A stretch of 22,955 bases of DNA from a virus, in IMG/VR virus record IMGVR_UViG_3300021424_000251, positions 1 through 22,955 of that record. The stretch is one strand, 5' to 3'. The notes beneath the pieces are model-generated. The model saw only the letters and a program-made list of their open reading frames with translations. It was not told the DNA's origin and searched no databases. Of the stretch, positions 4,187-22,870 are shown piece after piece. Position 1 is the stretch's first letter. Every line of letters starts with the position of its first letter. The position numbers were made by a program, and so were the translations under genes.

Positions 4187-5089
4187 ATGAGTATAGCAAG
4201 AAAATTAATACCAAGCGGTGAGGAGCAATTTCCTTTTAAAATTGAAATTACAACAACTACTGCTAATACTGTATGGACTACTCCATTATCAGATTATGGT
4301 GGATTAACTCCGCAATGTATAATTGATTGGGGAGATGGTACTGCTAATTCTGGTACGATTACAGCATCTAATTCTGCAAATAGAGTTCATACTTATTCTT
4401 CAGCTGGAACTTATATAATAACTATAAGTGGATTTATGCCAGGATTTACAGTCAATAACCTCTCATCTATAAGAAATTTAGTAACAGGGATTGTACAATT
4501 TGGTCAAGTTGGTTTAAGAGCTTTAAATTTTTATGGTTGTATAAATATAACTAATGTTCCATCTAGTGCTTTTTTAAGTGCAGTAGGTGGATATACCGGA
4601 CTAAATGAAATTCGTACCTATTCAAGCTTTTTAAGAGGAACAAGAATTACCTCTATTCCGTCTGATTTATTTTCATATTCTATTTATGCAACAACATTTA
4701 CAGACACATTTTCATCAATAACAACTTTAACAACTGTACCAAACAATTTATTTAATAATAATATTTCAGCAACAACTTTTGCATCTTGTTTTTTTGGAAA
4801 TACGGCATTAACTTCGGTTCCTGCAAGTTTATTTGATACTTGTACTTTAGTAACAAACTTTTCAGGTACTTTTAGAAATTGTTTAGCTTTAGGAAATGTT
4901 TTACAATTTACATATAATACTTCAGTAACTATTTTTAATAACTGTTATAATATGAGTAGTACAACAAATTCATTAAATGGAACTGCACCCGAATTGTGGA
5001 ATAGAGTTCCAACTCCATCTGGAACTGATTGTTTTAATAATTGTGTAAATTTATCTAATTTTGCATCAATACCATTAAACTTTAAGTAA
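4187..5089 (+). CDS. PKD-like and BspA-type repeat protein, candidate receptor-binding factor
   Basis: 300 residues. Residues about 18-90 look like a PKD-type beta-sandwich, with IDWGDGT near residue 48 followed by HTYSSAGTYIITISG. Residues about 105-290 carry BspA/DUF285-type repeats of roughly 27 residues with the core (T)(S/T)(V/I)P..LF.....ATTF...F, seen as ITSIPSDLF, TTVPNNLF and TSVPASLF. BspA-type repeats occur in surface proteins that bind proteins or other cells, so a role in host recognition is plausible but inferred. There is no signal peptide or membrane segment. It starts 11 bases after the long fibre stop and ends 2 bases before the chaperone gene, so it is very probably cotranscribed with both. 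It could be a separate fibre tip, a baseplate decoration or a fibre cofactor. Confidence 0.65.
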   Translation: MSIARKLIPSGEEQFPFKIEITTTTANTVWTTPLSDYGGLTPQCIIDWGDGTANSGTITASNSANRVHTYSSAGTYIITISGFMPGFTVNNLSSIRNLVTGIVQFGQVGLRALNFYGCINITNVPSSAFLSAVGGYTGLNEIRTYSSFLRGTRITSIPSDLFSYSIYATTFTDTFSSITTLTTVPNNLFNNNISATTFASCFFGNTALTSVPASLFDTCTLVTNFSGTFRNCLALGNVLQFTYNTSVTIFNNCYNMSSTTNSLNGTAPELWNRVPTPSGTDCFNNCVNLSNFASIPLNFK

Positions 5090-6216: not shown

Positions 6217-9200
6217 ATGGAGTATTTAGGTAAGAATCCTAATGGTTTAAATCAACTAAGCGCAAGTTTAGTTTCTTTATTTGTAAGTGGTAGTAGAATA
6301 GCTAATTTCTCATCTGAATCGGTGAGTGTAGTAGGAAATTTTACTGCTTCTGCTATACAAACACCATTAATTGGTTCGCCTACAAATTCAATTCAAATAA
6401 ATGCAAATGTAAGAGTTAGCGGCTCAATTTCCTCATCATTATTTAGTGGAGATGGTAGTGGATTAACAAATATTAATGCATCATCTATTGGAGATTTAAA
6501 TCAAATTAAATCTGGCTCTGCTATCGCAAATGTATCACCAAATAAAGGATTAATAGTAAATACAGGTGTATCAATTGATAGTTTTCTAATTGTAAGTGGT
6601 AGTGGAATCTTTAACGGAAATATTAGCGTAGCTGGAAAAATAACATCAACTGAATTACATACAACATTTATTTCATCATCAGTAATATTTGCAACAGGTT
6701 CTAATAAATTTGGTGATAATGTTAATGATAGACAAGAAATTACAGGAAGTTTAAATATAAGTGGTTCTATTGTAGTAACTGGTGAGACAATACCAACTGA
6801 TAATACAACAAATGAAGTATTAGTATTAAACACAACAACCGGTAGAATTAGTAGAAGATTTGCAGCAGCAACATCTGGAACTTCAGGAACCTCTGGAACA
6901 AGCGGCAGTTCAGGAAGTTCTGGCTCAAGCGGCTCAAGTGGTACGTCAGGAAGTGGAGGCTCATCAGGAAGTTCTGGTTCAAGCGGCTCTAGCGGAAGTA
7001 GTGGTTCGTCAGGAAGCTCTGGCTCTTCTGGCACAAGCGGAAGTGGAGGCTCATCAGGAACTTCTGGAAGTGGAGGTTCAAGCGGCACAAGCGGCAGTGG
7101 TGGAACATCAGGTAGTGGTGGAACGTCTGGCTCAGGAGGCACATCAGGAAGCGGTGGCTCTTCAGGCACCTCAGGAAGTGGAGGCTCTTCAGGAAGTTCT
7201 GGCTCATCAGGAAGTAGTGGAAGTTCAGGATCGTCTGGAACAACTGGCTCAGCGGGAACTACTGGCTCAGCAGGAACTTCAGGAAGTGGAGGCTCATCAG
7301 GTTCAACAGGTTCTGCAGGAACTAGTGGCTCGGGAGGTTTAACAGGATCATCAGGAACTTCTGGCACAAATGGCTCATCCGGAACGGGTGGTAGCGCAGG
7401 TACTGCAGGAAGTGGAGGCACATCAGGCATATCAGGCGCAGGAGGTAGCGCAGGTACATCTGGAAGTGGAGGCTCATCAGGAACAAGCGGCTCATCAGGC
7501 AGCAGTGGAAGTAGCGGAAGTAGCGGCTCATCAGGATTATCTGGAGCTGGTGGAACAGGTGGTACAGCAGGCACATCAGGTAGTGGTGGCACATCAGGAA
7601 CTTCTGGTAGTGGTGGCACGTCAGGAAGTTCTGGTAGCGGAGGCTCATCAGGAACTTCTGGAAGTGGTGGCTCATCAGGAACATCTGCAAGTGCAGGCAC
7701 AGGAGGAAGTTCAGGATCTAGTGGAACAAGCGGCTCGTCAGGAACAACTGGCTCGGCAGGTTCTTCTGGTACATCATCTACATCAGGAAGTGGAGGCTCA
7801 TCAGGAACTTCTGGAAGTGGAGGTACAAGTGGACAAAGTGGTGGAATAAAATATGATTTTAGTACAACAATAACTGATTCAGATCCTGGTAATGGAAAAG
7901 TTCAATATAATAATGCCACTATTTCTTCAGTTACATTTATATACATAGACCTTTTAGACCAAAATGGTAATAATCAATTAGCATGGTATAATACATGGGA
8001 TGATAGTACAACTTCTTCTGCAAGAGGATATGTTGTATTATCTTCAAGAGATAATGGTACAATCAATAATATATTTTTAGTTAATGGTGGTGTCACAAAC
8101 GCATCTGGATATTTTAAAATTCCTGTTTCTTATGTAAGTGGTACATTACCATCAAATAATGCACAATTAGTTATAGATTTTGTGAGAACGGGAGATGGTG
8201 GTACATCTGGTTCGGGAGGCACTTCTGGCACAACAGGAACTTCTGGTAGCGGAGGCTCATCTGGCACAACAGGAACTTCTGGAAGTGGAGGCTCATCAGG
8301 TACTGCGGGTAGTGGCGGCTCATCAGGAACTTCTGGTAGCGGAGGCACATCAGGAACTTCTGGTAGCGGAGGCTCATCAGGAAGTGGTGGCTCATCGGGC
8401 ACCGCAGGAAGTGGTGGCTCTTCAGGAACATCTGGAAGCGGCGGCACATCAGGAACAAGAGGCACATCAGGAAGTGGTGGCACATCCGGTACTGGAGGTA
8501 CATCTGGATTATTATCATTGACCGGTACAACTGATAATGGTGTAATCACCTTAAATGGGTCAGCACCAAACGGAACTGTTGAATCTAATTTGACATTTGA
8601 TGGTACTACATTGGCTGTTACTGGTAACGCTACAATTAGTGGTAATCTTACAGTAAATGGTACAACAACTACAGTCAACACAGAAACAATATTACTTGCG
8701 GATAATATAATCACATTAAATTCTAATTTTACTTCCGGCGCACCATCTGAAAATGCTGGTATAGAAGTAAGAAGGGGTTCATCATCAACCGTTTCATTCT
8801 TTTGGAATGAATCAACCGATAGATGGTATGCTGATAATACATTAGAAGTAGCTGGTAACGTTGTTCTTAGTGGTACAATTGATACTGGACAAGGAGCTAC
8901 GGAAGTTCACCTAATGAATCAAAACGTTAGAACAACTGATAGTGTAACATTCGCAAACATATCAGGTCCTTTAAGTGGTAATGCAACAACAGCAACAACG
9001 GCAACCTTTATAAATGTACAAGATACAAGAGCATTAGTAACAACACCTCAGACTCAAAATATGAATCAGGGTGTTAGATTTGATTTTAGACAAAATTCAA
9101 CAAACGGTTTAAATGATGGTGGTACTTACAATGGTGTAATGTATTTCAGAAAATATGGTAGTGGTGGTGATTGGTCTGGTGGTGGAGCAAACGAATTAGG

Positions 9201-12200
9201 ATTTACTGATAATGGTAATATGTGGTTGAGATATGGTAGTTCAACTACATGGGGAGCTTGGAGACGTATAATGGATACTACATCTTATGCGTTTGCAGCT
9301 AATATGAACCAAAATGTTCGTACAACCGATAACGTAACATTCAATCAAGTAACAGCAACCTCTACGGGAACATCAGTTAGTATAGCTGGTTCAGTAAATG
9401 TTGTAACATATAATAAACCTGGTTTACTTTTAAATTCTTCTGGAACTTCATCTGCTGGAGCAGCATTTGGTATGCAGCAAGTAACAGGTGAAGGTTGGAC
9501 AGGTATCTTTGTGGATTATGAACCATATACTGGATGGGGATTATATCATGATAATCCTTCAAATTATTTCTTAATTACATCTGAAGGTTCAACTGGAGCA
9601 ATTGGTGCCGGATTTACTGTACCATCAAGACAAAGTGGTAATAGAACAGCATATGTTAAAATGCGTTTTGACCAAAATAATGGTGATTTTACAACAGGTA
9701 GAGATGGATACGCTCAAACCTCATTCAGAGCACCAATATTCTATGATTCAAACGATACTGGGTATTATTTAGACCCAACATCTACTACAAGAATAAGATA
9801 TCTAAAAGTTAATGGAACTGGTACATCTTCTGGAACAAGATCATTAACAATATTAAATGATGGGCAAGCAGAAATTAACTTTGGCTCATATCCTGCATCT
9901 TGGACATCTGCATTACAAATTCAAAATAATAACAATACTGATTTTATCTGGATTTCACCAATAGATGATGGATATAATGCAAGATTTAGAACAGCAGGAA
10001 GTGGATTAGATTTCTATACAGATGGTGGTAATGATACTGGTACATACTCAACATTTATTGGTTCCGGTTACGTTCAAGGAATTAATTCTGTAAGAGGACC
10101 TATCTTTTATGATTCAAATGATACCGGATATTATTTAGACCCTAATTCTACAGGAATTTCACTGTTTGCTGCGGGTTCAGTAAGAGGAACATTTTATGTA
10201 GCAAGTAATTTTGCTAGTACTGGTTATACACAGTACAAAGGTTATGATAACAATAACCACTTTATAATGATTAGGGGTAGAGTTACAGGTAATACATCAT
10301 CTCCTACTTTTACTGGTTATCATAGAACTTCATTAATAGAATATGCTGAAACAAATGATGATACAGGATGGTTTTTTCAAACAGCTGCAACTGGTAACTA
10401 CGATATTGTAGCAAGATTAACACGTTCATATTCACAGTTTGAAAGTAGTGTTAGAGCACCAATCTTCTACGACTCTAATGACACGACATACTACTTAGAC
10501 CCTAATAGTAGTTCACTTTTAAGAGGTAGATTTAATATAACAGGTGGACATGGTAATTCAAGTCTCAGAGTATTCCTACAACCTGGCGAAAATGGTGCAG
10601 CAACTGGAATAACTACACTTCAAATGTGGACATCGGAACCAGGTAATACATGGGACGGAGCGGGGTTTGGATATAATGTAGACAATAATCAGAATGAGTC
10701 TGGAAATGTTCCAGCTTATTACTTCGGTAGACCAAATACTGGCTTTGGTCAGGCTTATATGAGAATGACAACTGATGGTAACTGGTATTTTTACAATACA
10801 CCAAATGGTTCTAATACAAGACATCTTACAATGCAACTTGTAAGAGATGGTTATTTATTAGCACCACAATCACTTCGCTCTCCGATATTTTATGATTCAA
10901 ATGATACCGGTAGATATGTAGACCCAAATGGATTTAGTAATTTATCGAATAGTGGTTTGGTGATGGAAGTAACCAAACTTGGAACCGGCCCTAATAGTAG
11001 AGCAGTTCAGTTTGCAAATAATCAGGGTGATAACTCTTGGGGTATTGTTGCGGAATTTAGAGTAAATGGTTCACCGGGTGGTGATAGGCCTTCAATATTA
11101 TTTTCTAATGGATTTGATAGTCAGACTTGGTCCTGTGGATATGGATATGCAGATTCAGGATATTTCAGAATTAACTATGACCACGGACATAGAAATGGTA
11201 GTTGGGGTACAACTGCATTCTATATAGATAGAGGTAGGAATTCTTACTCTAATGGTTCATCAAGAGCACCTATATTTTATGACCTTAATGATACAGGTTA
11301 TTATGGAGATTTTAATTCAACATCTCGTTTTAATGTAACAATAACCAACACTACATATTTTGGTTCGGATACAAATAAGGGATATGCACAAGGATATGGT
11401 ACATATTCATCGCTTTTCACAAAAGTGGCATACATGTCATTCGATTGGAATGCAAACTATAATTATTATTTTTATCATGGTATAGCATCAACTGATTTAA
11501 ATGGTAATTTTTCAGATTCAATGTCATTGAATTCTTTTAATGATATTATACTAAGACTTGACTCAAATGATAATAACAATAACTCCTATGTAAGATTTAT
11601 GGATAATACCGCTGGTTACAACCAATTTGCTTACATCGGTAGAGAGAGTGGTTCTCCGATTGCGTACTTTGGTGGTTCAGTTTATGGTACTATATTCTAT
11701 GACGCAAACGATAGTGGGTATTATATAGACCCTAACTCAACAAGCCAATCGGCAGGTAGAATGAGAGGTGGATTTTTACATGGGCCTAACCCAACATGGG
11801 GAGCTTATTTATTAGTTGGTGGTGATGGTAGAAACGGATATATTGATTCATCATTTGCATCAGTAGCAGCAACAAATGGTAACCTACACTTAGATGCTGG
11901 TAATGGATATCAATTATACTTAAACTACTACGATGGTAATGTAATTTATTTTGGTGGTGGTGCATATAATAACTGGGGTGAATTTAGTAGTGGTATATTC
12001 TACGCATACAATCAGATGCGTTCCCCTATAATGTATGATTACAATGATACAGGATATTATGTTGACCCTAATAGTGAATCTGTTTTAAATTATACCACTG
12101 TAAGAAGAATAACATTTCATGGTGTAGGGGGTAATTCGGGAATGGGTGGTGAAGCATATGCTATATTTCAAGAAGGTGGTAGTTGGAGTTATCCATTTCC

Positions 12201-14955
12201 TGACCTAAGAATAGCATATCATACAGGAATAAAGCTCGGAGCTAACGCTAGCTATCAGGGAATAAGATTTTACACAGACTACGATATGAGTGGTCAAGTT
12301 ATGTCTGTTAATAACGGATTTGACCCGTTAGGTGGTGGTAATGTATATGTAAACAACTCACTTCAAGCAGGTAGTTCACTTCGTGCAACTATATTTTATG
12401 ATTCTAATGATACAACATATTACCTGAACCCAAATGGTGATTCTAGATTTAGTGGCATTTATCTAAGTGGTATATCATCAACTTCAAATGGAATATATTT
12501 CTATGGTGTTGTTGGTGATAATCCTGGCTCGTATAACCATACTGCCATAGTTGAAAGAATTTGGAGAAATGGTGATGAATCAGAATTATTATTATTCAAA
12601 GGTAATGATCCTGATACATCAACTATACATGACCGTATGAGAATAGCGGCAACCGGTAGAATTGTATTCCACTCAACTGCAACATATCATGATGTAAATG
12701 GATATTTTTCTTTTTCTGGTACGGGTAATATTGAGGGTAGTGGATATTTTTATGGTTCCGAATTGCATGTACCGGGAGCAATTCAAACTCCAATTGTATA
12801 TGATAGAAACAACTCAGGATATTTTGTAGACCCTGCATCTCGTTCTCGTTTAGCATCAATAGATTATGGTAATGGTGGTTTCTATTTAGCTGGTGGTTCT
12901 TGGGGTTTTAGACATAATACTCCTTATGGATATATTGAATTTGGACCTGCAAACTCATCTCATGCTCACATTTATACTGACCGTGGTAATTTTTATTTCA
13001 ACGTAAACGAATTATATGCAAATGGTTATCATGTGATAGTACACAACCTATGGTGGGGTAACACTTACTTTGGTAGTGGTGGTGATATGTATGCAACTAT
13101 TTGGTATGATACGAATGATACCGGATACAGATTAGACCCGAATGGTTCTTCAAGACTTAACTTTGTTCATTCAAATAACCATTATATACAACCTGGTCAT
13201 ATGTTGTATTCCGATCCTGGTGGTTGGACTGGTGAATACAACAAAATCCAATGGCATAGTTCGCACCTTTATTATCAAATGATTAATAACGGATATCACA
13301 TTTTCCGTTATGGTGGTGATGGGTTGGAATCTCAATATTTTGCTAGAGATGGAAACTTTTGGAATAGATATATTGGGTGGTTATCAAACTGGGCAAACCA
13401 AAACGTAAGAACTGATGCTAACCCAACTTTTAATAACATATATTCAAACGGATGGTTTAGAAATAATAATTCTGGACAAGGTTTATATAACGAAAATAGA
13501 GGAATGCACTGGTACACCAATAACGGATATTGGAAATCAGCAGGTGGTGGATATGGATATGGTGGTGTAGTAATGTACAACAACTACGAATCTGATATAA
13601 GAGGATACTCTGGATATTGGGACGGTAGTGGTTTTGGTATGTTAAATAACTCTGGAAACTGGCAGATTCGTATTGAATACGGAAATGCTAATATGGAATT
13701 GTATCGTGTGACATGGGCAAACGATATGAGAGCATATATCTTCTATGATAGAAATGATACGGGTTATTATATGGACCCTAACGCACGTTCTCAATGGTTA
13801 GGATTAGAAGATAGAGGTAAGGGTAATATTTCATTAACAGGTAAATCGAACTGGAGAAGACCTCAAGATATCACTGGAGACAGAAACTATTGGACAGGTG
13901 CTATGGGTTGGGGTACTACGGACTTTAACTGGGTAATGGATTGGGGTAGTGGTGATATTGATACTTGGTCAAACCCCGCTAACCAACCTCCTGGTACATC
14001 TCACTGGGTGGGTGTTCAATCATATCACTATGTAAACTGGTATAACTCCGGTTATGGATGGCAATTAGTTGGTGGACCTGTTGATAGATTATGGTTTAGA
14101 AACTCTTGGCCAAATAATACCGGATGGAAAGCACAAGTTGACTCTAATAATAGAGGTGAATATTGTATTCCTACATATGATTACAACCACTATTCAAGAG
14201 TTTACTTTACTTATAATAGAGGATATTACGCAACACAAACCGATTCGGCAATGTGCCAACCATACTCAACTGGTAATAATGGTGCGTTTATGTCATTCCA
14301 CAAAGGTGGTTACTATGCATTAAACTTAGGTTTGGATGGTGATAACGTTGTAAGATGGGGAGGTTGGTCTTCCAGATGGCAAAGATATTATTTGAATGAT
14401 GATACGTTGGGTACTCCATATGTATTACGTTCTAATTTTGATAACTATACTGGTGGTGGTGTTTGGGTATCTGATGATGGTGATTTAGCAGATATAAACG
14501 ATGGATATTTATCACTTCGTGCTTCTTATGGTTTGAGAATCTTCTCTGGTAATAGAGGTGGTGGTGCAAACATCAATTTGAGATATGATGGTGTAATTAT
14601 TGCATCAAACAATATTATTGCTTATGGTTCACCTTCGGATAGAAGATTGAAAGATAATGTTAAATTCTACGAAAACGCTTTAGAGAAAGTATTAAAACTT
14701 AGAGGTGTTGAGTTTGATTGGAAAGAAGGTACTGATGAATATGAAACAACAGGTCTAAGACATGATATTGGATTTATTGCACAAGAAGTTGAAGATGTTG
14801 AACCATTGTTGGTAAGGCCAGATGATGCAGGATATTTAGCATTAAGGGATAGAGCAATGCCAGCACTATTGGTAAACGCTATTAAAGAATTAAAGGCGGA
14901 ATTGGATGAAGCTAAAGATAAAATAAAAATATTAGAACAAAAATTAGGTTTATAA
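6217..14955 (+). CDS. Giant tail fibre with Gly-X-Y shafts, IFYDSNDT repeats and C-terminal S74 chaperone
   Basis: 2,912 residues. Order: N-terminal beta region (1-218) ending in an adaptor (NEVLVLNTTTGRISRR); Gly-X-Y tract (219-543); folded domain (544-660); second Gly-X-Y tract (661-764); an exit module with DNGVITLNGSAPN (about 765-810); a fibre module with LTVNGTTTTVNTETILLADN, AGIEVRRG and FFWNESTDRWY; two NQNVRTTD motifs (bases 8917, 9307) and a third, NQNVRTDA, at 13396; eleven IFYDSNDTGYYLDP modules (1172-2520); and at 2807-2912 a Peptidase_S74 intramolecular chaperone starting SDRRLKDN. In this family the fibre cuts itself before that Ser after trimerising, releasing the chaperone; Ser2807 and nearby Lys fit. 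A coiled-coil end (LKAELDEAKDKIKILEQKL) supports trimerisation. The 12-base gap to the preceding small gene indicates one operon. The product is probably a long adhesive fibre. Confidence 0.94.
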   Translation: MEYLGKNPNGLNQLSASLVSLFVSGSRIANFSSESVSVVGNFTASAIQTPLIGSPTNSIQINANVRVSGSISSSLFSGDGSGLTNINASSIGDLNQIKSGSAIANVSPNKGLIVNTGVSIDSFLIVSGSGIFNGNISVAGKITSTELHTTFISSSVIFATGSNKFGDNVNDRQEITGSLNISGSIVVTGETIPTDNTTNEVLVLNTTTGRISRRFAAATSGTSGTSGTSGSSGSSGSSGSSGTSGSGGSSGSSGSSGSSGSSGSSGSSGSSGTSGSGGSSGTSGSGGSSGTSGSGGTSGSGGTSGSGGTSGSGGSSGTSGSGGSSGSSGSSGSSGSSGSSGTTGSAGTTGSAGTSGSGGSSGSTGSAGTSGSGGLTGSSGTSGTNGSSGTGGSAGTAGSGGTSGISGAGGSAGTSGSGGSSGTSGSSGSSGSSGSSGSSGLSGAGGTGGTAGTSGSGGTSGTSGSGGTSGSSGSGGSSGTSGSGGSSGTSASAGTGGSSGSSGTSGSSGTTGSAGSSGTSSTSGSGGSSGTSGSGGTSGQSGGIKYDFSTTITDSDPGNGKVQYNNATISSVTFIYIDLLDQNGNNQLAWYNTWDDSTTSSARGYVVLSSRDNGTINNIFLVNGGVTNASGYFKIPVSYVSGTLPSNNAQLVIDFVRTGDGGTSGSGGTSGTTGTSGSGGSSGTTGTSGSGGSSGTAGSGGSSGTSGSGGTSGTSGSGGSSGSGGSSGTAGSGGSSGTSGSGGTSGTRGTSGSGGTSGTGGTSGLLSLTGTTDNGVITLNGSAPNGTVESNLTFDGTTLAVTGNATISGNLTVNGTTTTVNTETILLADNIITLNSNFTSGAPSENAGIEVRRGSSSTVSFFWNESTDRWYADNTLEVAGNVVLSGTIDTGQGATEVHLMNQNVRTTDSVTFANISGPLSGNATTATTATFINVQDTRALVTTPQTQNMNQGVRFDFRQNSTNGLNDGGTYNGVMYFRKYGSGGDWSGGGANELGFTDNGNMWLRYGSSTTWGAWRRIMDTTSYAFAANMNQNVRTTDNVTFNQVTATSTGTSVSIAGSVNVVTYNKPGLLLNSSGTSSAGAAFGMQQVTGEGWTGIFVDYEPYTGWGLYHDNPSNYFLITSEGSTGAIGAGFTVPSRQSGNRTAYVKMRFDQNNGDFTTGRDGYAQTSFRAPIFYDSNDTGYYLDPTSTTRIRYLKVNGTGTSSGTRSLTILNDGQAEINFGSYPASWTSALQIQNNNNTDFIWISPIDDGYNARFRTAGSGLDFYTDGGNDTGTYSTFIGSGYVQGINSVRGPIFYDSNDTGYYLDPNSTGISLFAAGSVRGTFYVASNFASTGYTQYKGYDNNNHFIMIRGRVTGNTSSPTFTGYHRTSLIEYAETNDDTGWFFQTAATGNYDIVARLTRSYSQFESSVRAPIFYDSNDTTYYLDPNSSSLLRGRFNITGGHGNSSLRVFLQPGENGAATGITTLQMWTSEPGNTWDGAGFGYNVDNNQNESGNVPAYYFGRPNTGFGQAYMRMTTDGNWYFYNTPNGSNTRHLTMQLVRDGYLLAPQSLRSPIFYDSNDTGRYVDPNGFSNLSNSGLVMEVTKLGTGPNSRAVQFANNQGDNSWGIVAEFRVNGSPGGDRPSILFSNGFDSQTWSCGYGYADSGYFRINYDHGHRNGSWGTTAFYIDRGRNSYSNGSSRAPIFYDLNDTGYYGDFNSTSRFNVTITNTTYFGSDTNKGYAQGYGTYSSLFTKVAYMSFDWNANYNYYFYHGIASTDLNGNFSDSMSLNSFNDIILRLDSNDNNNNSYVRFMDNTAGYNQFAYIGRESGSPIAYFGGSVYGTIFYDANDSGYYIDPNSTSQSAGRMRGGFLHGPNPTWGAYLLVGGDGRNGYIDSSFASVAATNGNLHLDAGNGYQLYLNYYDGNVIYFGGGAYNNWGEFSSGIFYAYNQMRSPIMYDYNDTGYYVDPNSESVLNYTTVRRITFHGVGGNSGMGGEAYAIFQEGGSWSYPFPDLRIAYHTGIKLGANASYQGIRFYTDYDMSGQVMSVNNGFDPLGGGNVYVNNSLQAGSSLRATIFYDSNDTTYYLNPNGDSRFSGIYLSGISSTSNGIYFYGVVGDNPGSYNHTAIVERIWRNGDESELLLFKGNDPDTSTIHDRMRIAATGRIVFHSTATYHDVNGYFSFSGTGNIEGSGYFYGSELHVPGAIQTPIVYDRNNSGYFVDPASRSRLASIDYGNGGFYLAGGSWGFRHNTPYGYIEFGPANSSHAHIYTDRGNFYFNVNELYANGYHVIVHNLWWGNTYFGSGGDMYATIWYDTNDTGYRLDPNGSSRLNFVHSNNHYIQPGHMLYSDPGGWTGEYNKIQWHSSHLYYQMINNGYHIFRYGGDGLESQYFARDGNFWNRYIGWLSNWANQNVRTDANPTFNNIYSNGWFRNNNSGQGLYNENRGMHWYTNNGYWKSAGGGYGYGGVVMYNNYESDIRGYSGYWDGSGFGMLNNSGNWQIRIEYGNANMELYRVTWANDMRAYIFYDRNDTGYYMDPNARSQWLGLEDRGKGNISLTGKSNWRRPQDITGDRNYWTGAMGWGTTDFNWVMDWGSGDIDTWSNPANQPPGTSHWVGVQSYHYVNWYNSGYGWQLVGGPVDRLWFRNSWPNNTGWKAQVDSNNRGEYCIPTYDYNHYSRVYFTYNRGYYATQTDSAMCQPYSTGNNGAFMSFHKGGYYALNLGLDGDNVVRWGGWSSRWQRYYLNDDTLGTPYVLRSNFDNYTGGGVWVSDDGDLADINDGYLSLRASYGLRIFSGNRGGGANINLRYDGVIIASNNIIAYGSPSDRRLKDNVKFYENALEKVLKLRGVEFDWKEGTDEYETTGLRHDIGFIAQEVEDVEPLLVRPDDAGYLALRDRAMPALLVNAIKELKAELDEAKDKIKILEQKLGL
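6871..7845 (+). repeat. Gly-X-Y tract 1 of the giant fibre
   Basis: About 325 residues of GTS, GSS and GSG triplets, with a GSG/GGS-rich middle (for example GSGGTSGSGG). No proline. The coding DNA is an imperfect array of 9- and 18-base units such as GGAAGTGGAGGCTCATCA. It begins directly after SRRFAAA and ends at GQSGG before a folded domain. Confidence 0.94.
8191..8508 (+). repeat. Gly-X-Y tract 2 of the giant fibre
   Basis: About 104 residues of Gly-X-Y triplets, again Ser/Thr/Gly-rich and proline-free, with one GTRGTS. It links the inserted domain at residues 544-660 to the DNGVITLNGSAPN exit module. Confidence 0.93.
9730..13779 (+). repeat. Eleven IFYDSNDTGYYLDP fibre modules
   Basis: Modules start near bases 9730, 10096, 10456, 10879, 11266, 11686, 12022, 12385, 12787, 13093 and 13732. 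The consensus is (A/S)PIFYDSNDTGYYLDPNS..., a motif known from phage tail fibres. Variants include IMYDYNDTGYYVDP, IVYDRNNSGYFVDP and IWYDTNDTGYRLDP. Spacings are 122, 120, 141, 129, 140, 112, 121, 134, 102 and 213 residues. The segments between are unlike one another but similar in character (Gly, Asn, Tyr and Trp rich). Confidence 0.93.
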
Positions 14956-16274: not shown

Positions 16275-18647
16275 ATGGCAGAAAGAATCGTATCACCTGG
16301 CGTATTCACAAGAGAAAATGACCTATCATTTATAGCACAAGGTATAGGAGAAATAGGAGCAGCATTTATAGGACCTTTAAAACAAGGACCTGCGTTTGTT
16401 CCAACAATTGTGAGAACACAATCAGAATTCGAAGATATCTTCGGCGTTCCTGATGGGACATATTATACTGAATATGCAGTACAAAATTATTTAAGGGAAG
16501 CTGGCTCAGCAACAATCGTAAGAGTAGCTGGAGTTGGTGGTTATAAGCAACAAAAACCTTTGGGTATATTTGCAACTGCTGCAAATTCTGGAGCTAGTGA
16601 AAAACTAATTGGTGTTTTATATAATACCAATTTGGGAGCACAAGATGTAGGATTTGATACTGTAACAGCAGCAAGTTCAAGTTTTGCAGATTCATTAGGT
16701 AGATTTATACTATTTGGTGGATTAGATGCTAACTTACTATCTGGTTCAGCTATAGCTATATCAGCATCTATAAATCCTGGCGATACAAATGATTTATCTG
16801 ATGTCTTTGGTACTTCTCCAATTGTATCACAAGCAAGCACATCTAAAAAATCATACACATACGTTTATTTCGAACATACAGCATCTTTACTATATGCATC
16901 ATCTTCAATGAATATTAAGAAATTGCCTGAACAAGATTATTCTGGTAATGAAAAATTTCCAGCTTATTCTGAAGCATTTACTCCTTGGGTTAAATCTCAA
17001 AACATAAGTGGTGAAAGATATGACCTTTTCCGTTTTGCAACTTTAGGACATGGTACAAATTATAATACTAAATTCAAAATTGGTATTTCTAACGTAAAGG
17101 CAGCTGGTGAAGATGGAGCAACTGATTACGCTACATTTACTGTAACTATTCGTAGTTATAGTGATACTGATAAGAGAAAAGGTGTAATTGAAACATATAA
17201 CAATGTAAACTTAGACCCAGCATCTCCAAACTATATAGCAAGAAGAATCGGTGATAGATATGTAACAATTGATTCAGATGGTAAGATTACTGAATATGGT
17301 GATTATGTAGCTAGGTCAAAATATATTAGAGTTGAAGTAAAAGAGGCAGGAGCATTTGCTGTATCAGCAGCACCATTTGGACATGCAGCTTATTACAATC
17401 CAATTAAAGTTGCAACAGCAGATGAATCAAAAGTTCCTCCTGTTGTATTCCAAACTGGTTCATTAGGAAATACAGCATCATCTCCTGTATATTTTTCAGG
17501 ATTTGATTTTGAAACAACTGGTGTATCAACCGATAACAAACAATATTTAAGACCATTACCACAAGGTGTGGCTAATGGAAGCAACTCAGTATTTGCGTTT
17601 GATAATACATCTTTAGGATTATCATTTGAAATGACTGGTTCAACTTCATCTGATATGTCTAGGAGACAATTTATCTTAGCATTCCAAGGTGGATATGATG
17701 GTATGAATCCAACTGTAAAACCTGCAAAAGCTGGTGATGCAGAGTGGGGAGCAGCAAATACGCAAGGATTCAATTGTTCTAACGCAGCATCTTCAGGTTC
17801 CCTTTCTTACTTTAGAGCAATTAACGCTGTTTCAAATCCTGATGAATATGATATCAATATGGTAGTAACTCCTGGTATCGTAAGAAGTCTTCACCCATCA
17901 GTAACTACAAAAGCTATTGATATGGTTGAAGATAGACAAGATGCATTCTATATCGCTGATTTCAACGATTATGATAATACAATTACTGAGGCTACTGAAG
18001 CAGCAAATGCAGTTGATTCCAACTATGTAGCTACTTATTATCCTTGGGTTAAAACAATTGATACAAATACAAATAAACTTACAACTGTACCACCATCAGT
18101 ATTGATGCCAGCTGTATTCGCTCAGAATGATAGATTGGCAGCAGAATGGTTCGCACCTGCTGGTTTGAATAGAGGTGGTATTGTAGGAGCAGTAACTGTA
18201 TTGAATAGATTAACACACTCTGAGAGAGATACTTTATATGAGAACAAAGTAAACCCAATTGCAGCATTCCCTGGACAAGGTATTGTAGCATTTGGACAGA
18301 AAACATTACAAGATAAGGCTTCAGCATTAGATAGAATCAACGTAAGAAGATTACTTATAACTGTTAAGAAGTTTATCGCATCTACTTCTCGTTTCTTGGT
18401 ATTTGAACAAAATACTTCAACAACTAGAGGAAGATTTTTGAATACTGTAAATCCTTATTTAGAAGCAATTCAACAAAGACAAGGTTTATACGCATTCAGA
18501 GTTGTAATGGATGAAAGTAATAATACTCCTGATGTGATTGATAGAAACATATTAGCTGGACAAATTTTCTTACAACCTGCGAAGACAGCGGAATTCATCG
18601 TAATTGATTTCAACATTCTTCCAACCGGAGCAAGTTTTTCAGCATAA
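16275..18647 (+). CDS. gp18: Contractile tail sheath protein (T4 gp18-like)
   Basis: 790 residues, longer than T4 gp18 (659). The N-terminus, MAERIVSPGVFTRENDLS followed by GAAFIGPLKQGPAF.P..V and F...FG....TYYTEYAVQNYL, is the standard sheath opening: the strand that links subunits, then the first conserved domain. The C-terminal domain has the sheath signature, with a VNPYLEAIQQRQGLYAFRV-type stretch, NNTPDVIDRN, and an IFLQPAKTAEFIVIDFNI strand. The middle carries variable domains, which probably hold the extra length. Sheath subunits surround the tube and contract to drive it into the host. GGAG lies about 8 bases before the ATG. The tail tube gene follows after 51 bases with its own promoter candidate, the usual sheath-tube order. 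Confidence 0.96.
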   Translation: MAERIVSPGVFTRENDLSFIAQGIGEIGAAFIGPLKQGPAFVPTIVRTQSEFEDIFGVPDGTYYTEYAVQNYLREAGSATIVRVAGVGGYKQQKPLGIFATAANSGASEKLIGVLYNTNLGAQDVGFDTVTAASSSFADSLGRFILFGGLDANLLSGSAIAISASINPGDTNDLSDVFGTSPIVSQASTSKKSYTYVYFEHTASLLYASSSMNIKKLPEQDYSGNEKFPAYSEAFTPWVKSQNISGERYDLFRFATLGHGTNYNTKFKIGISNVKAAGEDGATDYATFTVTIRSYSDTDKRKGVIETYNNVNLDPASPNYIARRIGDRYVTIDSDGKITEYGDYVARSKYIRVEVKEAGAFAVSAAPFGHAAYYNPIKVATADESKVPPVVFQTGSLGNTASSPVYFSGFDFETTGVSTDNKQYLRPLPQGVANGSNSVFAFDNTSLGLSFEMTGSTSSDMSRRQFILAFQGGYDGMNPTVKPAKAGDAEWGAANTQGFNCSNAASSGSLSYFRAINAVSNPDEYDINMVVTPGIVRSLHPSVTTKAIDMVEDRQDAFYIADFNDYDNTITEATEAANAVDSNYVATYYPWVKTIDTNTNKLTTVPPSVLMPAVFAQNDRLAAEWFAPAGLNRGGIVGAVTVLNRLTHSERDTLYENKVNPIAAFPGQGIVAFGQKTLQDKASALDRINVRRLLITVKKFIASTSRFLVFEQNTSTTRGRFLNTVNPYLEAIQQRQGLYAFRVVMDESNNTPDVIDRNILAGQIFLQPAKTAEFIVIDFNILPTGASFSA

Positions 18648-18698: not shown

Positions 18699-19196
18699 AT
18701 GGCAGAAATACTAGAGTTTGATAAGATGTTCTATACGAACTTCGAACCTAAGATGAAAAATAGATATGTGATGGAGTTCGGCGAAGTCGGATTACCTGCG
18801 TATCTTGTAAAAGCAGCTAATAGACCTACTATTCAATTTGAAGTAGTAACTTTAGACCATATCAACGTAAAAAGAAAGTTGAAGGGTAAAGGTGAGTGGC
18901 AAGATATCACTGTCACCCTATATGACCCAATTGTTCCTTCAGCAGCTCAAGGTGTAATGGAATGGGTGAGATTATCTCATGAATCTATTACAGGTAGAGA
19001 TGGATACGCTGAGTTTTACAAAAAAGATATTGATTTCTATATGTTAGGTCCTGTTGGTGATAAAATTGAACAGTGGAAAATTAAAGGAGCATTTATCAGT
19101 CAAGCAAACTTTGGTGATTTAGCATTTGATTCTGCTAACGAACCTGCAACAATTGAATTAACATTATCTTACGATTACGCAATCCTTGAATTCTAA
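18699..19196 (+). CDS. gp19: Tail tube protein (T4 gp19-like)
   Basis: 165 residues, close to T4 gp19 (163). Features seen: an N-terminal helix part (MAEILEFDKMFYTNFEPKMKN), RYVMEFGEVGLPAYLVKAANRP, the conserved HINVKRKLKGKGEWQDITVTLYDP region, the G..EW.RLSHES.TGR.GY loop, and an ISQANFGDLAF...E..TIELTLSYDYAILEF end. This is the Hcp-like beta-barrel tube fold of the phage tail tube family. The protein would form the inner tube in stacked hexamers around the tape measure, inside the sheath. AAAGGA about 11 bases upstream may aid initiation. A strong terminator follows at 19221, so the gene looks monocistronic apart from any readthrough from the sheath. Confidence 0.95.
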   Translation: MAEILEFDKMFYTNFEPKMKNRYVMEFGEVGLPAYLVKAANRPTIQFEVVTLDHINVKRKLKGKGEWQDITVTLYDPIVPSAAQGVMEWVRLSHESITGRDGYAEFYKKDIDFYMLGPVGDKIEQWKIKGAFISQANFGDLAFDSANEPATIELTLSYDYAILEF

Positions 19197-19301: not shown

Positions 19302-20054
19302 ATGCAAGAAAAACAATATGATTTTCCAACGGAAGTATTAGACCTTCCATCAAAAGGGTTGGTGTACCCAAAAGACCACCCATTATCATCGGGTAGAATT
19401 ACAATTAAACATATGACAGCAAAGGAAGAAGATATTCTTTCTAATCAAAACCTTATTAAAAAAGGTGTTGTTTTGGATAAATTATTTGAATCAATTGTTG
19501 TTGATGATGTTAATGTAAGTGATATTATTATTGGTGATAAAAATGCAATTGTATTAGCAACAAGATTATTGGGATATGGGCCTGAATACAAAATGAAGTT
19601 TTATTCAACTATCACCAACGATAGTAAAGAGATAACAATTGATTTATCTAAAATACAAACAAAAGAAGTAGATTTTTCAGTTTTTAAGCATAAAAATGAG
19701 TTTGAATATACTCTACCATCGAGTGGTAAAAAAATTACTTTTAAATTACTTACGCATTTTGATGAAATAGCGATTGAAAAAGATATTGATGCATTGAAAA
19801 AATTAAGTAAAGATGTATCAGCAGATATTACAACTAGATTACGTTATATGATTAAATCGGTTGATGGTGATAATAGTGTAAGTGCCGTAAGTAAGTTAAT
19901 AAATGGTATGTTAGCTAGAGATAGTAGAGCATTTAGAGAATATGTAAAGAGTATTTCTCCTGATATGGATATGAAATATGAATATGAACATGAAACTGGT
20001 GAAAAGGAGGTCATCAATATTACATTAGGTGTTGGGTTTTTTTGGCCTAGCTAA
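19302..20054 (+). CDS. gp26: Baseplate/tail assembly protein, T4 gp26-like
   Basis: 250 residues. The start, then DFPTEVLDLPSKGLVYP, SSGRITIKHMTAKEEDIL and a KGVVLDKLFESI helix match the T4 gp26-type baseplate protein family (T4_baseplate), as do TRLRYMIKSVDG, the acidic-rich SRAFREYVKSISPDMDM and the closing GVGFFWPS. T4 gp26 (208 residues) is a baseplate hub assembly factor; in many related phages this protein is placed just ahead of the tape measure, as here, and may act as a tail assembly chaperone. The last 26 bases overlap the next frame at a T7 run, suggesting a frameshifted longer product. A promoter candidate ends 20 bases before the ATG. Family assignment is fairly firm, exact role less so. 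Confidence 0.82.
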   Translation: MQEKQYDFPTEVLDLPSKGLVYPKDHPLSSGRITIKHMTAKEEDILSNQNLIKKGVVLDKLFESIVVDDVNVSDIIIGDKNAIVLATRLLGYGPEYKMKFYSTITNDSKEITIDLSKIQTKEVDFSVFKHKNEFEYTLPSSGKKITFKLLTHFDEIAIEKDIDALKKLSKDVSADITTRLRYMIKSVDGDNSVSAVSKLINGMLARDSRAFREYVKSISPDMDMKYEYEHETGEKEVINITLGVGFFWPS

Positions 20055-20253
20055 AGAACATAGTGTATTAGTACATTCTCAAATATTTGATATGATAAAT
20101 TATGGGAATGGGTTCACATTTTCAGATGTTTATCATATGCCAACTTATTTAAGAAATTTTTATTATAATAAGTTAGTAGATGCTAAAAAGAAAGAATCCG
20201 AACAAATTAAAAAATCAAACTCTCAAAAATCATCTAAAGTTAGGATAAGGTAA
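20029..20253 (+). CDS. gp51-like overlapping frame, or frameshift extension of the gp26-like protein
   Basis: Up to 74 residues from a GTG at 20029: GFFGLAKEHSVLVHSQIF, then GNGFTFSDVYHMPTYLRNFYY and a Lys-rich tail. The (V)HSQIF...GFTFSDVY.MP..LR.FY pattern resembles the short protein that follows gp26 in T4-like phages (gp51 position) and the frameshift extensions of tail-assembly chaperones. Only GTG 20029 or TTG 20032 could start it, because TAG at 20026 closes the frame just upstream. AGGAGG at 20005-20010 is a good Shine-Dalgarno but sits 18 bases from the GTG, too far for ordinary use. A +1 slip at GGG TTT TTT TGG would instead join it in frame to the gp26-like protein with no residues lost. 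Its stop lies inside a terminator hairpin. Confidence 0.65.
   Translation: MLGFFGLAKEHSVLVHSQIFDMINYGNGFTFSDVYHMPTYLRNFYYNKLVDAKKKESEQIKKSNSQKSSKVRIR
20034..20045 (+). other. Candidate +1 frameshift site in T7 run
   Basis: The upstream frame reads GGG TTT TTT TGG; the downstream frame reads TTT TTT GGC after moving one base forward. A Phe tRNA on TTT (20040-20042) can re-pair perfectly with TTT at 20041-20043. A -1 slip would hit TAG at 20048. Confidence 0.45.
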
Positions 20254-20311: not shown

Positions 20312-20551
20312 ATGAAAAAATATAAAATATCTAAAAAAAATTTAAAAGAATTTTTTGGATTTTTCACTAAAAAGAAAACTCCGCAAGAAATTCAAAAATT
20401 AATAGATAATGATCCTGTATTGCAGAGACTTCAAAAAGATATGAGGGCAATTAATGATAAAAGTAAGGATTATTTTGATAAATTAAAAACAACAAATCCA
20501 AAATTATATAAATGGGCTAAAGACTCTGGTATGATAAATCCAAATAATTAA
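20312..20551 (+). CDS. Small Lys-rich hypothetical protein before tape measure
   Basis: 79 residues starting MKKYKISKKNLKEFFGFF. It is strongly helical and basic at the N-terminus, followed by KKTPQEIQKLIDNDPVLQRL, then KDMRAINDKSKDYFDKL and a P..Y.W.KDSGMI end. The pattern I..LI..DP.L..L...M..IN....D.......P.......SG(M/L)I looks like a short phage protein near tape-measure genes, but I cannot name it. The ATG at 20312 fits the promoter 20 bases upstream. The tape-measure gene follows after 3 bases, so translation is probably coupled. It may help load or chaperone the tape measure; that is a guess from position. Confidence 0.72.
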   Translation: MKKYKISKKNLKEFFGFFTKKKTPQEIQKLIDNDPVLQRLQKDMRAINDKSKDYFDKLKTTNPKLYKWAKDSGMINPNN

Positions 20552-20554
20552 TAG

Positions 20555-22870
20555 ATGACAAATGAAGCGCAAAAACGTGCGTTGCTGGAAGAAATAAAAG
20601 AAATTCAGGATAGAATAGCTGAACAAAATAGACAGGCGGCAACGGCAACGGGTATCGAATTACAACAATTGGAAGCTAGAATTGCTTCTGAAAAAATACG
20701 TCTTAGATTACAAAGAGAATCATTAGGTAACGTACAGGCTACATTAGATGCCGAAAAAGAAGCTGCAAAACAAGCTGAAGCCAGAAATACTAGATTACAG
20801 GAAGCAAACGATTTACAGGATGAATTTTCTACATCTTTGACTAGAATGGGTGAACAGCAACGAAAAATGCTTACCGATTCAAATACCGGTACTAGTGCGT
20901 ACGCTGCGATAACTACCAAAATATTAGAATTAAAACAACAAGAAGTAGATGCATCCGATGATGATAGAGCTATTTTGGCAGCAAGAAGAAATATATTAGA
21001 AGGAATACGAACCGAACAAATTGAAGCCGCTGAGGCAGCTGCTATGGCTAGACAAGAGTTATTTGGAATATCTGATGCTGAACAAAGGAGAATAGAGTTT
21101 CAGCAATCAATAGCGGGATTGAGCCAGGATGAAATAGATTTGGCAACGCAAGCGTTTGAGGCTAAAGAAAACCTAATACAACAACAAGAAAGGTATAACC
21201 AATTACAAGAAGGTGGTAATGAAATTATGGGTAAATTACCAAGTGGGATTCGAAGTGTAATTGGTGGTATCAAAAATATGATAATGGGAATCCGAGCATT
21301 TGGACTGCAAGCTGCAATCGCAACCGCTGGACTTACATTAGTAATTGGAGCAATAGTGGCCGGTGTAGATTACTTCATGGGGTTAAATAAAGCCGGTGAA
21401 GATTTTAGAAAAGAGACTGGTGTTACTAATTCTATGATGGCTGATATGGAAGATAAAGCCGTTGCAATAAGTAAACAATATGGGAATTATGGTGTATCTT
21501 TAGAAGATGCATACGATACGATGGCTGCTTTAAGAGATGAATCTTCCGATATTGCAAACTATTCAGAAGCCGCAGTAGCCGGACTTACCTTAATGAAAAC
21601 AAATTTTGGTGTAAGTGCGGAAGAAGCTGCTAAAGTACAAAATGTATTAGAAAGTGTAGGTGGATTATCCGAAGATACTGCTGTTAATGTTCAAATGCAA
21701 GTTGCTAATATGTCTAAATTAGCAGGAGTTGCACCAAAGAAAATATTAAAAGATATTGCGGAAAATGCTGAAGCAACCTCTACATTTTTTAAAGGAGATA
21801 TTACATTGTTGGCACAACAGGCAATTCAAGCTAGAAGATTGGGTACGAATTTAAAAGATGTAACCGCTACCGCAGAAAAACTTTTAGATTTTGAAAGTAA
21901 TATTGAAGAAGAATTAGTTGCGGCTACCTACGTTGGTGGCCAGTTTAACCTTAGTAGAGCAAGAGCTTTGGCGATGGAAGGTAAGTTGGTGGAGGCACAA
22001 GAAGAAACCTTAAAACAAATCCAACGAAGTGGTGATTTTAGAAAACAAGATTATTTTACTCAACAACAATTAGCTAAAGCAGCTGGTATGAGTGTTGAAG
22101 AAATAAATAAACAATTGAATGCTCAAGAAAAATTAGGTAAACTAAATGAGGAAGATAGAAAACGTGCAGAAGAAGCTATTAATGCTGGATTGGATATTAC
22201 TAATATTGGTGATGAACAATTAATGCAAGAAGTTCAAAAAGCTGCTGCACAAAAAGAAATGGCATCAACAATAACTGATATGGAAAACACATTCAAAGGA
22301 ATATTAGCAACAGTGGGTGGTGCACTTATGCCTTTATTTGAAATATTAGGTCCTGTTCTTAAAGTTGCATTTATGCCATTAAAAATAGCTGCAAAACTTT
22401 TACAGTTTGTACTTGATGGGATAATGTGGTTTATAAAGAAAATACCATTTCTTGGAAAATTTGTTGAAGGAGTTGGAAATGCATTTAACACATTTGACCA
22501 AGGTGTAACGAATTTCTCAGTAGCAGGATTAGAAGGTGGAGGTATGGGTAGTGTTATTGAAGCGGGTGATGTAATTTCTCCTGCAAATGGACAAACTATG
22601 ATTTCTACAAAAGAAGGTGCGTTATTAAAACCTTCATCAAACGATGATATAGTGGCTGCACCAGGTGCGGCTAATGCAGTTGGAGGTGGTTCTAGTTTGG
22701 CTGCTTTATCTGCACCATTAAACGCTATGATTGGTGAATTAAAAGCATTAAGAGCAGATTTGGCAGCAGGTAAAATTTCTGTAAATATGGATGGAGTAAA
22801 AGTTGCGTCTGGAATTGGTAAAGTTGTGGATGGTAGTACCAGAAATAACTTTGCTATGGCACAAGCGTAA
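20555..22870 (+). CDS. Tail tape measure protein
   Basis: 771 residues. Long heptad-type coiled coil rich in Ala, Glu, Gln and Arg (about 1-215); a hydrophobic segment (about 250-275, AIATAGLTLVIGAIVAGVDYF); a long helical middle (280-590); a second hydrophobic region (about 597-640, with VLDGIMWFIKKIPFLGKFVEG); and a closing part with a Gly-rich turn, AMIGELKALRADLAAGKISV and VKVASGIGK, the familiar end of tape measures. Such proteins set tail length inside the tube and may form a channel in the host membrane. If extended as helix at about 0.15 nm per residue, 771 residues would give a tail of about 115 nm (inference). It starts 3 bases after the 79-residue gene, downstream of sheath, tube and gp26-like genes, the normal place. 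Confidence 0.88.
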   Translation: MTNEAQKRALLEEIKEIQDRIAEQNRQAATATGIELQQLEARIASEKIRLRLQRESLGNVQATLDAEKEAAKQAEARNTRLQEANDLQDEFSTSLTRMGEQQRKMLTDSNTGTSAYAAITTKILELKQQEVDASDDDRAILAARRNILEGIRTEQIEAAEAAAMARQELFGISDAEQRRIEFQQSIAGLSQDEIDLATQAFEAKENLIQQQERYNQLQEGGNEIMGKLPSGIRSVIGGIKNMIMGIRAFGLQAAIATAGLTLVIGAIVAGVDYFMGLNKAGEDFRKETGVTNSMMADMEDKAVAISKQYGNYGVSLEDAYDTMAALRDESSDIANYSEAAVAGLTLMKTNFGVSAEEAAKVQNVLESVGGLSEDTAVNVQMQVANMSKLAGVAPKKILKDIAENAEATSTFFKGDITLLAQQAIQARRLGTNLKDVTATAEKLLDFESNIEEELVAATYVGGQFNLSRARALAMEGKLVEAQEETLKQIQRSGDFRKQDYFTQQQLAKAAGMSVEEINKQLNAQEKLGKLNEEDRKRAEEAINAGLDITNIGDEQLMQEVQKAAAQKEMASTITDMENTFKGILATVGGALMPLFEILGPVLKVAFMPLKIAAKLLQFVLDGIMWFIKKIPFLGKFVEGVGNAFNTFDQGVTNFSVAGLEGGGMGSVIEAGDVISPANGQTMISTKEGALLKPSSNDDIVAAPGAANAVGGGSSLAALSAPLNAMIGELKALRADLAAGKISVNMDGVKVASGIGKVVDGSTRNNFAMAQA

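Follow-up and report, generated by a model that had tools for sequence, protein, structure and literature searches.

The tail-assembly chaperones of T4-like phages, of the gp26/gp51 type, are reportedly the subject of a 2022 paper by Vladimirov, Gautam and Davidson. In excerpts of a 2010 review, gp26 and gp51 are listed as hub assembly chaperones, with gp51 being essential in T4 and of unknown function (PMC3004832). Passages of two later papers, both citing Vladimirov et al. 2022, describe some T4-like phages as having a short gene alongside a long fusion gene (PRFect, PMC10885494) and poly-T -1 signals in T4-like chaperones (PMC12846349). As far as these passages go, chaperone pairs made in T4-like phages by a -1 shift or from two genes are already published, so that the chaperone identity of the locus described here is known in kind. 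The T4-like chaperones belong to the same family as this locus (PF12322, phrog_150), comprise a short form and a C-terminally extended long form, and occupy the same place in the tail module. In T4, the two forms come from two genes on opposite strands, whereas the phage studied here has one gene and an overlapping +1 frame.

More generally, frameshifting of the G-T type is described, in a section of a 2016 review, as conserved except in T4, with a direction of -1, -2 or +1 depending on the phage (PMC5009743). The pairs gpG/gpGT of lambda and gp17.5/17.5* of SPP1 offer a functional analogy, in which a chaperone pair precedes the tape measure gene and its ratio is set by a shift; the SPP1 slip sequence is given as UUUUUUC in a passage of PMC6316719. 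Both of these pairs shift -1, whereas the present locus would shift +1. In direction it can be likened to the tail chaperone gene of the myovirus HSTV-2, which very likely uses a +1 shift according to part of the same 2016 review (PMC5009743), but HSTV-2 is an archaeal virus. Bacterial prfB (CUU_UGA) likewise involves a forward slip of the P-site tRNA on pyrimidine-UU followed by U, and Flavobacterium phage immuto, a relative of the present locus, has CUU_UGG. In prfB, the A site holds a stop codon and an SD-like motif lies 3 nt upstream, while the +1 clade described below has a sense codon in the A site (UGG, UAC or UAU) and GGAGG 26 nt upstream.

Here we analysed a 22,955-nucleotide stretch of viral DNA (the window; IMG/VR virus record IMGVR_UViG_3300021424_000251, positions 1 to 22,955), focusing on positions 19,302 to 20,054. 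Sequence comparisons led us to conclude, with a probability of roughly 0.87, that this locus is a tail-assembly-chaperone gene of the gp26/gp51 family with two products, a short form and a long form that would arise by a +1 shift. Judged by titles and the openings of abstracts, full-text searches of the open-access literature brought up no +1 shift in the gp26/gp51 family; Vladimirov et al. 2022 may report part of what is described here. Subject to that paper, the +1 direction in this family, the rule that no T precedes the run, and the conserved GGAGG are new here.

Overlapping frames and their genomic setting

The genes of the tail module follow the order sheath, tube, ORF1/ORF2 pair and tape measure (Table 1). 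Profile searches revealed that ORF1 matches PF12322 at 30.2 bits, above the curated Pfam cut-off of 24.5, and phrog_150 at 44 bits (E 3.7e-11). The gp19-like tube ORF also matches PF06841 at 28.0 bits, slightly under the cut-off of 28.2. The 771-aa ORF itself reached no Pfam cut-off and matched no tape-measure PHROG; it was assigned by its place in the gene order, and immuto has an annotated tail tape measure protein at the equivalent place. Position and homology thus identify ORF1/ORF2 as a putative tail-assembly-chaperone pair. Between the chaperone and tape measure genes lies a 79-codon ORF (20312-20551) whose profile matches are all below cut-off, and short CDSs are annotated at the equivalent place in immuto and SP-15. 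Elsewhere in the window, two very long ORFs (3-4175 and 6217-14955) consist by eye mostly of Gly-Ser-Thr repeats (GTSGSSG), with repeated YDSNDTGYYLDP units in one of them; they probably encode tail fibre or adhesin proteins.

Table 1. Coordinates of the features of the tail module and of the ORF1/ORF2 junction in the window
Feature	Position	Strand	Remarks
Tail sheath protein, gp18-like	16275..18647	+	PF04984 and PF17482 above cut-off
Tail tube protein, gp19-like (upstream neighbour)	18699..19196	+	phrog_4542 tail tube, 100.5 bits
ORF1, putative gp26-like short chaperone	19302..20054	+	250 aa, zero-frame product; PF12322, phrog_150
AGGAGG within ORF1	20005..20010	+	GGAGG 20006-20010 ends 26 nt before first slip-site Phe codon
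GTG, annotatable ORF2 start	20029..20031	+	Not conserved; judged not used
ORF2	20029..20253	+	74 aa from GTG; frame open from TAG 20026-20028 to 20253
Candidate slip site GGG_TTT_TTT_T	20037..20043	+	Seven T; Phe tRNA would move from TTT 20040-20042 to TTT 20041-20043
Putative +1-frame extension, like the gp51 C-terminus	20044..20253	+	Predicted fusion translation of 316 aa, ...GVGFFGLAKEH...
Tape measure protein, probable (downstream neighbour)	20555..22870	+	771 aa; position and size

An AlphaFold2 model of ORF1, built from a 29-sequence alignment (pLDDT 89), matched in BFVD the SP-15 baseplate hub subunit (E 1.1e-17), T4-like baseplate hub assembly proteins and gp26 of Aeromonas phage 25 (2e-5). 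Its best PDB match was the HK97 tail assembly chaperone 2OB9, a weak one both in Foldseek (E 0.43, prob 0.66) and in VIA-align (Z 4.8, 81 residues, rmsd 4.5; next rows 3.6).

Analysis of the junction bore out the original prediction in its description of the frames: ORF1 ends in GTT GGG TTT TTT TGG CCT AGC TAA, the next frame overlaps it by 26 bases and is open only after the TAG at 20026, the step from ORF1 to ORF2 is +1 (or -2), and the -1 frame is closed by TAG 20048-20050. The prediction had also placed AGGAGG 18 bases 5' of the only GTG, a poor position for initiation; the spacing stands, and a TTG at 20032 is a further possible start of ORF2. T runs of at least seven occur on the + strand of the window only at 4789-4795 and at the slip site. 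A sequencing error at the run was ruled out, because the site recurs in 159 of 160 related loci from many samples. The ORF1/ORF2 overlap is real, and it very probably has a function.

In the mechanism that we propose, most ribosomes would stay in the zero frame and produce the short form. In a fraction of them, a peptidyl-tRNA-Phe on TTT 20040-20042 would, with the A-site codon TGG still to be read, slip one base forward; GGC would be read next, giving the long form. The final 69 residues of this product are the counterpart of the C-terminus of T4 gp51. If the pair works as gpG/gpGT of lambda does, the tape measure would be coated by the short form and the tail tube subunit recruited by the long form, and neither would be expected in the virion.

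Conservation and coding status of the +1 frame

Two scans of IMG/VR yielded 160 loci of the clade, on 156 contigs as four contigs were common to both 80-locus scans; all 160 carry the ORF2 homologue in +1, and 159 have TTT TTT T at the site. The first scan, with ORF1 as query (80 of 288 loci kept), returned TTT TTT TGG CCT in 79 loci and TTT TTT TGG AAA in one, with ORF2 in +1 throughout (80/80). The second, with an alignment as query (80 of 595 loci kept, identity down to 47%), returned TTT TTT followed by TAC (47), TGG (28) or TAT (4) in 79 of 80 loci and TTC TTT TAC in the remaining one (L182), and the ORF2 homologue is again in +1 in 80/80. In L210 and L213, the +1 ORF2 was recognised by inspection, a longer unrelated frame having been picked first. 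Scanning bacterial and archaeal genomes added 10 loci, seven of them in MAGs named as Bacteroidota; ORF2 is in +1 in 9/9 usable loci, with TTT TTT TGG in eight and TTT TTT TTC in one.

A scan with a distant protein as query gave 20 loci, of which 18 were usable. Left out of the counts for these last two scans were the truncated L327 and L328 and the partial L308. ORF2 is in +1 in 16 of these 18, with TTC TTT TGG at 14 of the 16 sites. In the other two, L319 and L324 (near 2700), ORF2 lies in a different frame and has an ATG to itself, possibly a further arrangement of the gp51-like part. A normal separate start, which the original prediction had named as counter-evidence, is thus found in two of the 18. 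Among named phages, the +1 arrangement occurs with TTT TTT TGG in Microcystis phage Mel-JY01 and Rhodothermus phage RM378, TTT CTT TGG in immuto, TTT CTA in LR756508, TTC TTT CGT in Streptococcus phage SagM-GXN1, TTT TTT CAC in Bacillus phage SP-15 and TTT TTT AGT in Listeria phage LIS04. The Firmicute phages SP-15 and LIS04 (L087 and L088, near 2190) have no GGAGG in the stretch shown. IMG/VR searches with the RM378 and SP-15 proteins gave no matches beyond those phages themselves. Overall, the comparison with related phages proposed in the original prediction favours it: the overlap, the T run and the +1 frame were all kept, and many relatives have no independent ORF2 start.

Each +1 locus whose junction was read contains TTT_T, TTT_C or CTT_T. 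The forward re-pairing that had been predicted for the T7 run is therefore possible at all +1 sites read, by a Phe tRNA moving from TTT to TTT or TTC, or by a Leu tRNA moving from CTT to TTT in immuto. The same frame would also be reached, with one extra Phe, if the ribosome slipped -2 as in phage Mu. The P-site Phe tRNA in the T7 run could indeed re-pair two bases back, an upstream GGAGG at long spacing would, if paired, presumably pull backwards rather than forwards, and such shifts are known in tail genes according to a portion of PMC5009743. Pairing after a -2 slip would, however, be poor at TTC TTT TGG (14 loci), TTC TTT TAC (L182) and TTT CTT TGG (L001), where +1 is kept, and the seventh-position T stays constant even as the codon there changes among Trp, Tyr and Phe. 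Since the TTC TTT TGG and TTC TTT TAC sites leave only a +1 slip on TTT_T, we consider a -2 shift unlikely.

Comparison of 26 relatives (<95% identity) over the 45 codons past the slip site gave a pN/pS of 0.295 in the +1 frame, which has no stop in any of the 26 (0/26), while each of the other two frames is interrupted in 26/26; ORF2 is thus under purifying selection. In one close locus (L038), ORF2 is shortened. We then considered ORF2 as a separate gene, started from GTG 20029 or TTG 20032 via the AGGAGG. This AGGAGG is conserved, the window and several relatives do contain a GTG or TTG, and two distant relatives have a separate ATG. The 18-nt spacing is, however, too long, and GGAGG precedes none of the 14 window gene starts examined. 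In the stretch from the stop that closes the +1 frame to 28 nt beyond the slip codon, no ATG, GTG or TTG was found in 11 of 28 non-redundant relatives (a set without L029, L035, L038, L056, L003 and L004) or in 27 of 77 in a second set, though ORF2 remains in them; the next in-frame ATG of relatives without an earlier start mostly lies inside the conserved domain. The conserved residues begin at the slip site and not at the start. The frequent absence of a usable start suggests that ORF2 is mostly unable to start independently, and a separate gene is scarcely credible.

Nucleotide signals around the slip site

To separate nucleotide signals from codon usage, 78 ORF1 sequences with <90% identity were compared with 500 synonymous codon shuffles within each gene; because the 78 relatives share kinship, the shuffles indicate a departure from codon usage and not a probability. 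TTTTTTT is present at the site in 77 of 78 sequences (shuffle mean 53.6, max 68), and 76 of 78 have a base other than T immediately 5' of the first Phe codon (mean 33.0, max 45); both features coincide in 75 of 78 (mean 22.9, max 36). A T placed before the run would make the -1 heptamer T_TTT_TTT, and its avoidance fits selection against a -1 slip.

Slippage on homopolymers is also a known mechanism, and RNA polymerase could slip in the T7 run, so that some mRNAs would be one U shorter and could be read without a ribosomal shift. That the run is exactly seven T long in 75 of the 78 non-redundant relatives is in keeping with this, but the arrangement is kept with only three or four T in L309-L318, L320-L323, L182 and L001, and the avoidance of T before the run (76/78) would be pointless, as a longer run would slip more. 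We regard polymerase slippage as very improbable and favour a +1 slip of the ribosome.

Upstream of the site, 61 of 78 sequences have a GGAGG whose end lies precisely 26 nt from the first Phe codon (shuffle mean 3.1, max 9), with a spacing of 23 nt instead in some relatives. The Glu codon within it is GAG in 67/72 cases compared with 350/1612 overall. The codon 5' of it encodes various amino acids and has G at its third position in 64/78, against 10.8% overall. By a plainer measure of codon identity along ORF1, other columns rank equally high, so the T run and the GAG stand out by which codon is kept and not by identity alone. An SD-like stimulator close to the slip site as in prfB is absent, the distance from the end of GGAGG to the first Phe codon being 26 (or 23) nt; known stimulators are spaced at 3 nt in prfB and about 10 nt for -1 shifts, and 26 nt matches neither. 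An internal start driven by the AGGAGG at a conserved Ile codon 8 nt further on is unlikely, as this codon varies among ATT, ATC and ATA. Analysis of 26 relatives with RNAalifold gave no pairs that would indicate a conserved stem or pseudoknot, and in the window alone folding is somewhat better than in shuffles 3' of the site (z -2.3) and not 5' of it.

The hosts are probably Bacteroidota, as indicated by the MAG names, the hosts of immuto and RM378, and the lack of GGAGG before the 14 window gene starts examined; the weaker AGGA or GGAG occurs at 4 of these 14. Most gene starts in the window are preceded by A-rich sequence and have no evident Shine-Dalgarno motif, a pattern also seen in Bacteroidota and their phages. 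An SD-like tetramer precedes 3/65 ORF1 starts versus 54/231 starts of longer ORFs in the +1 clade and 28/226 in the -1 clade, a scarcity at ORF1 that is not decisive for the host. Ribosomes of Bacteroidota-type hosts have an occluded anti-SD, but prfB shifting that involves AGGAGG is nevertheless widespread (523/726 genomes), as stated in part of PMC8710568.

Relation to T4 gp26/gp51 and the cyanophage pairs

Examination of ORF2 in ten further named T4-type phages revealed RM378 as the +1 case among them. In Syn9, P-SSM2, S-PM2, phiM12, pf16 and PhiW-14, the short ORF ends in T_TTT_TT(C/T) and ORF2 is in -1; in HTVC008M, DLP6 and Vi01, match coordinates place ORF2 in -1, and Vi01 has no T_TTT_TTY heptamer despite this frame. 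A scan with the P-SSM2 protein (80 of 574 loci kept) returned TTTTTTC (T_TTT_TTC) with a -1 ORF2 in 80/80. In this -1 clade, 15 of 24 non-redundant loci have GGAGG ending 10 nt upstream of the heptamer, and the Glu codon there is GAG in 23 of 24; an ATG directly follows the short-ORF stop, making separate ORF2 starts possible. The cyanophage pair (Syn9, P-SSM2, S-PM2 and the 80 IMG/VR relatives) therefore resembles the +1 clade in its Phe-Phe end at a T run, its overlapping extension and its upstream GGAGG, but differs in frame (-1), in site (T_TTT_TTC) and in the position of GGAGG, 10 nt being the usual spacing of an SD-like -1 stimulator.

T4 gp26 (208 aa) and gp51 (249 aa) match PF12322 at 215.6 and 177.5 bits, respectively, and both match phrog_150; gp51 extends about 48 residues beyond its Pfam match, and phrog_634 covers the gp51 C-terminus and cyanophage ORF2. 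In a single hhalign comparison, 271 columns of the +1-clade fusion aligned with gp51 and the -1-clade fusions taken together (prob 96.6, E 6e-10), with the Phe-Phe in register. The C-termini of the +1 clade, compared once with those of the -1 clade together with T4 gp51, aligned with prob 93.3 and E 2.8e-7. T4 gp26 and gp51 are paralogues of the ORF1 protein, with gp51 comprising a gp26-like part and a C-terminal part homologous to the overlapping frame. The shared PF12322 and phrog_150 matches, together with the fusion alignment, show that T4 has as two genes what the window phage encodes as a gene and an overlapping frame. The label "gp51-like" given to ORF2 in the original prediction is upheld by the profile-profile comparison and the architecture of gp51, though not by direct search, as the single ORF2 of the window had no PHROG match and no Pfam family above cut-off.

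At rather less than even odds, we suggest that this family has solved the need for a short and a long form by a -1 shift, a +1 shift and a duplication. The direction would have been switched through the base before the shared Phe-Phe T run, T in the -1 case and another base in the +1 case, plus a move of GGAGG from 10 to 26 nt, and GGAGG at 26 nt would be a new long-range stimulator, in hosts (probably Bacteroidota) that hardly use SD for initiation.

The annotated records read here treat the extension unevenly: no gene is given for the frame in immuto or SP-15, and in Mel-JY01 it stands as a separate hypothetical protein; in annotation, frames of the ORF2 type in these phages would be extensions and not genes. 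The GGAGG at 26 nt represents a conserved nucleotide signal, held against codon preference. T4 gp26/gp51, the cyanophage -1 pairs and the +1 clade fall into one homologous series, which would make both the function of these proteins and the switch in shift direction directly testable.
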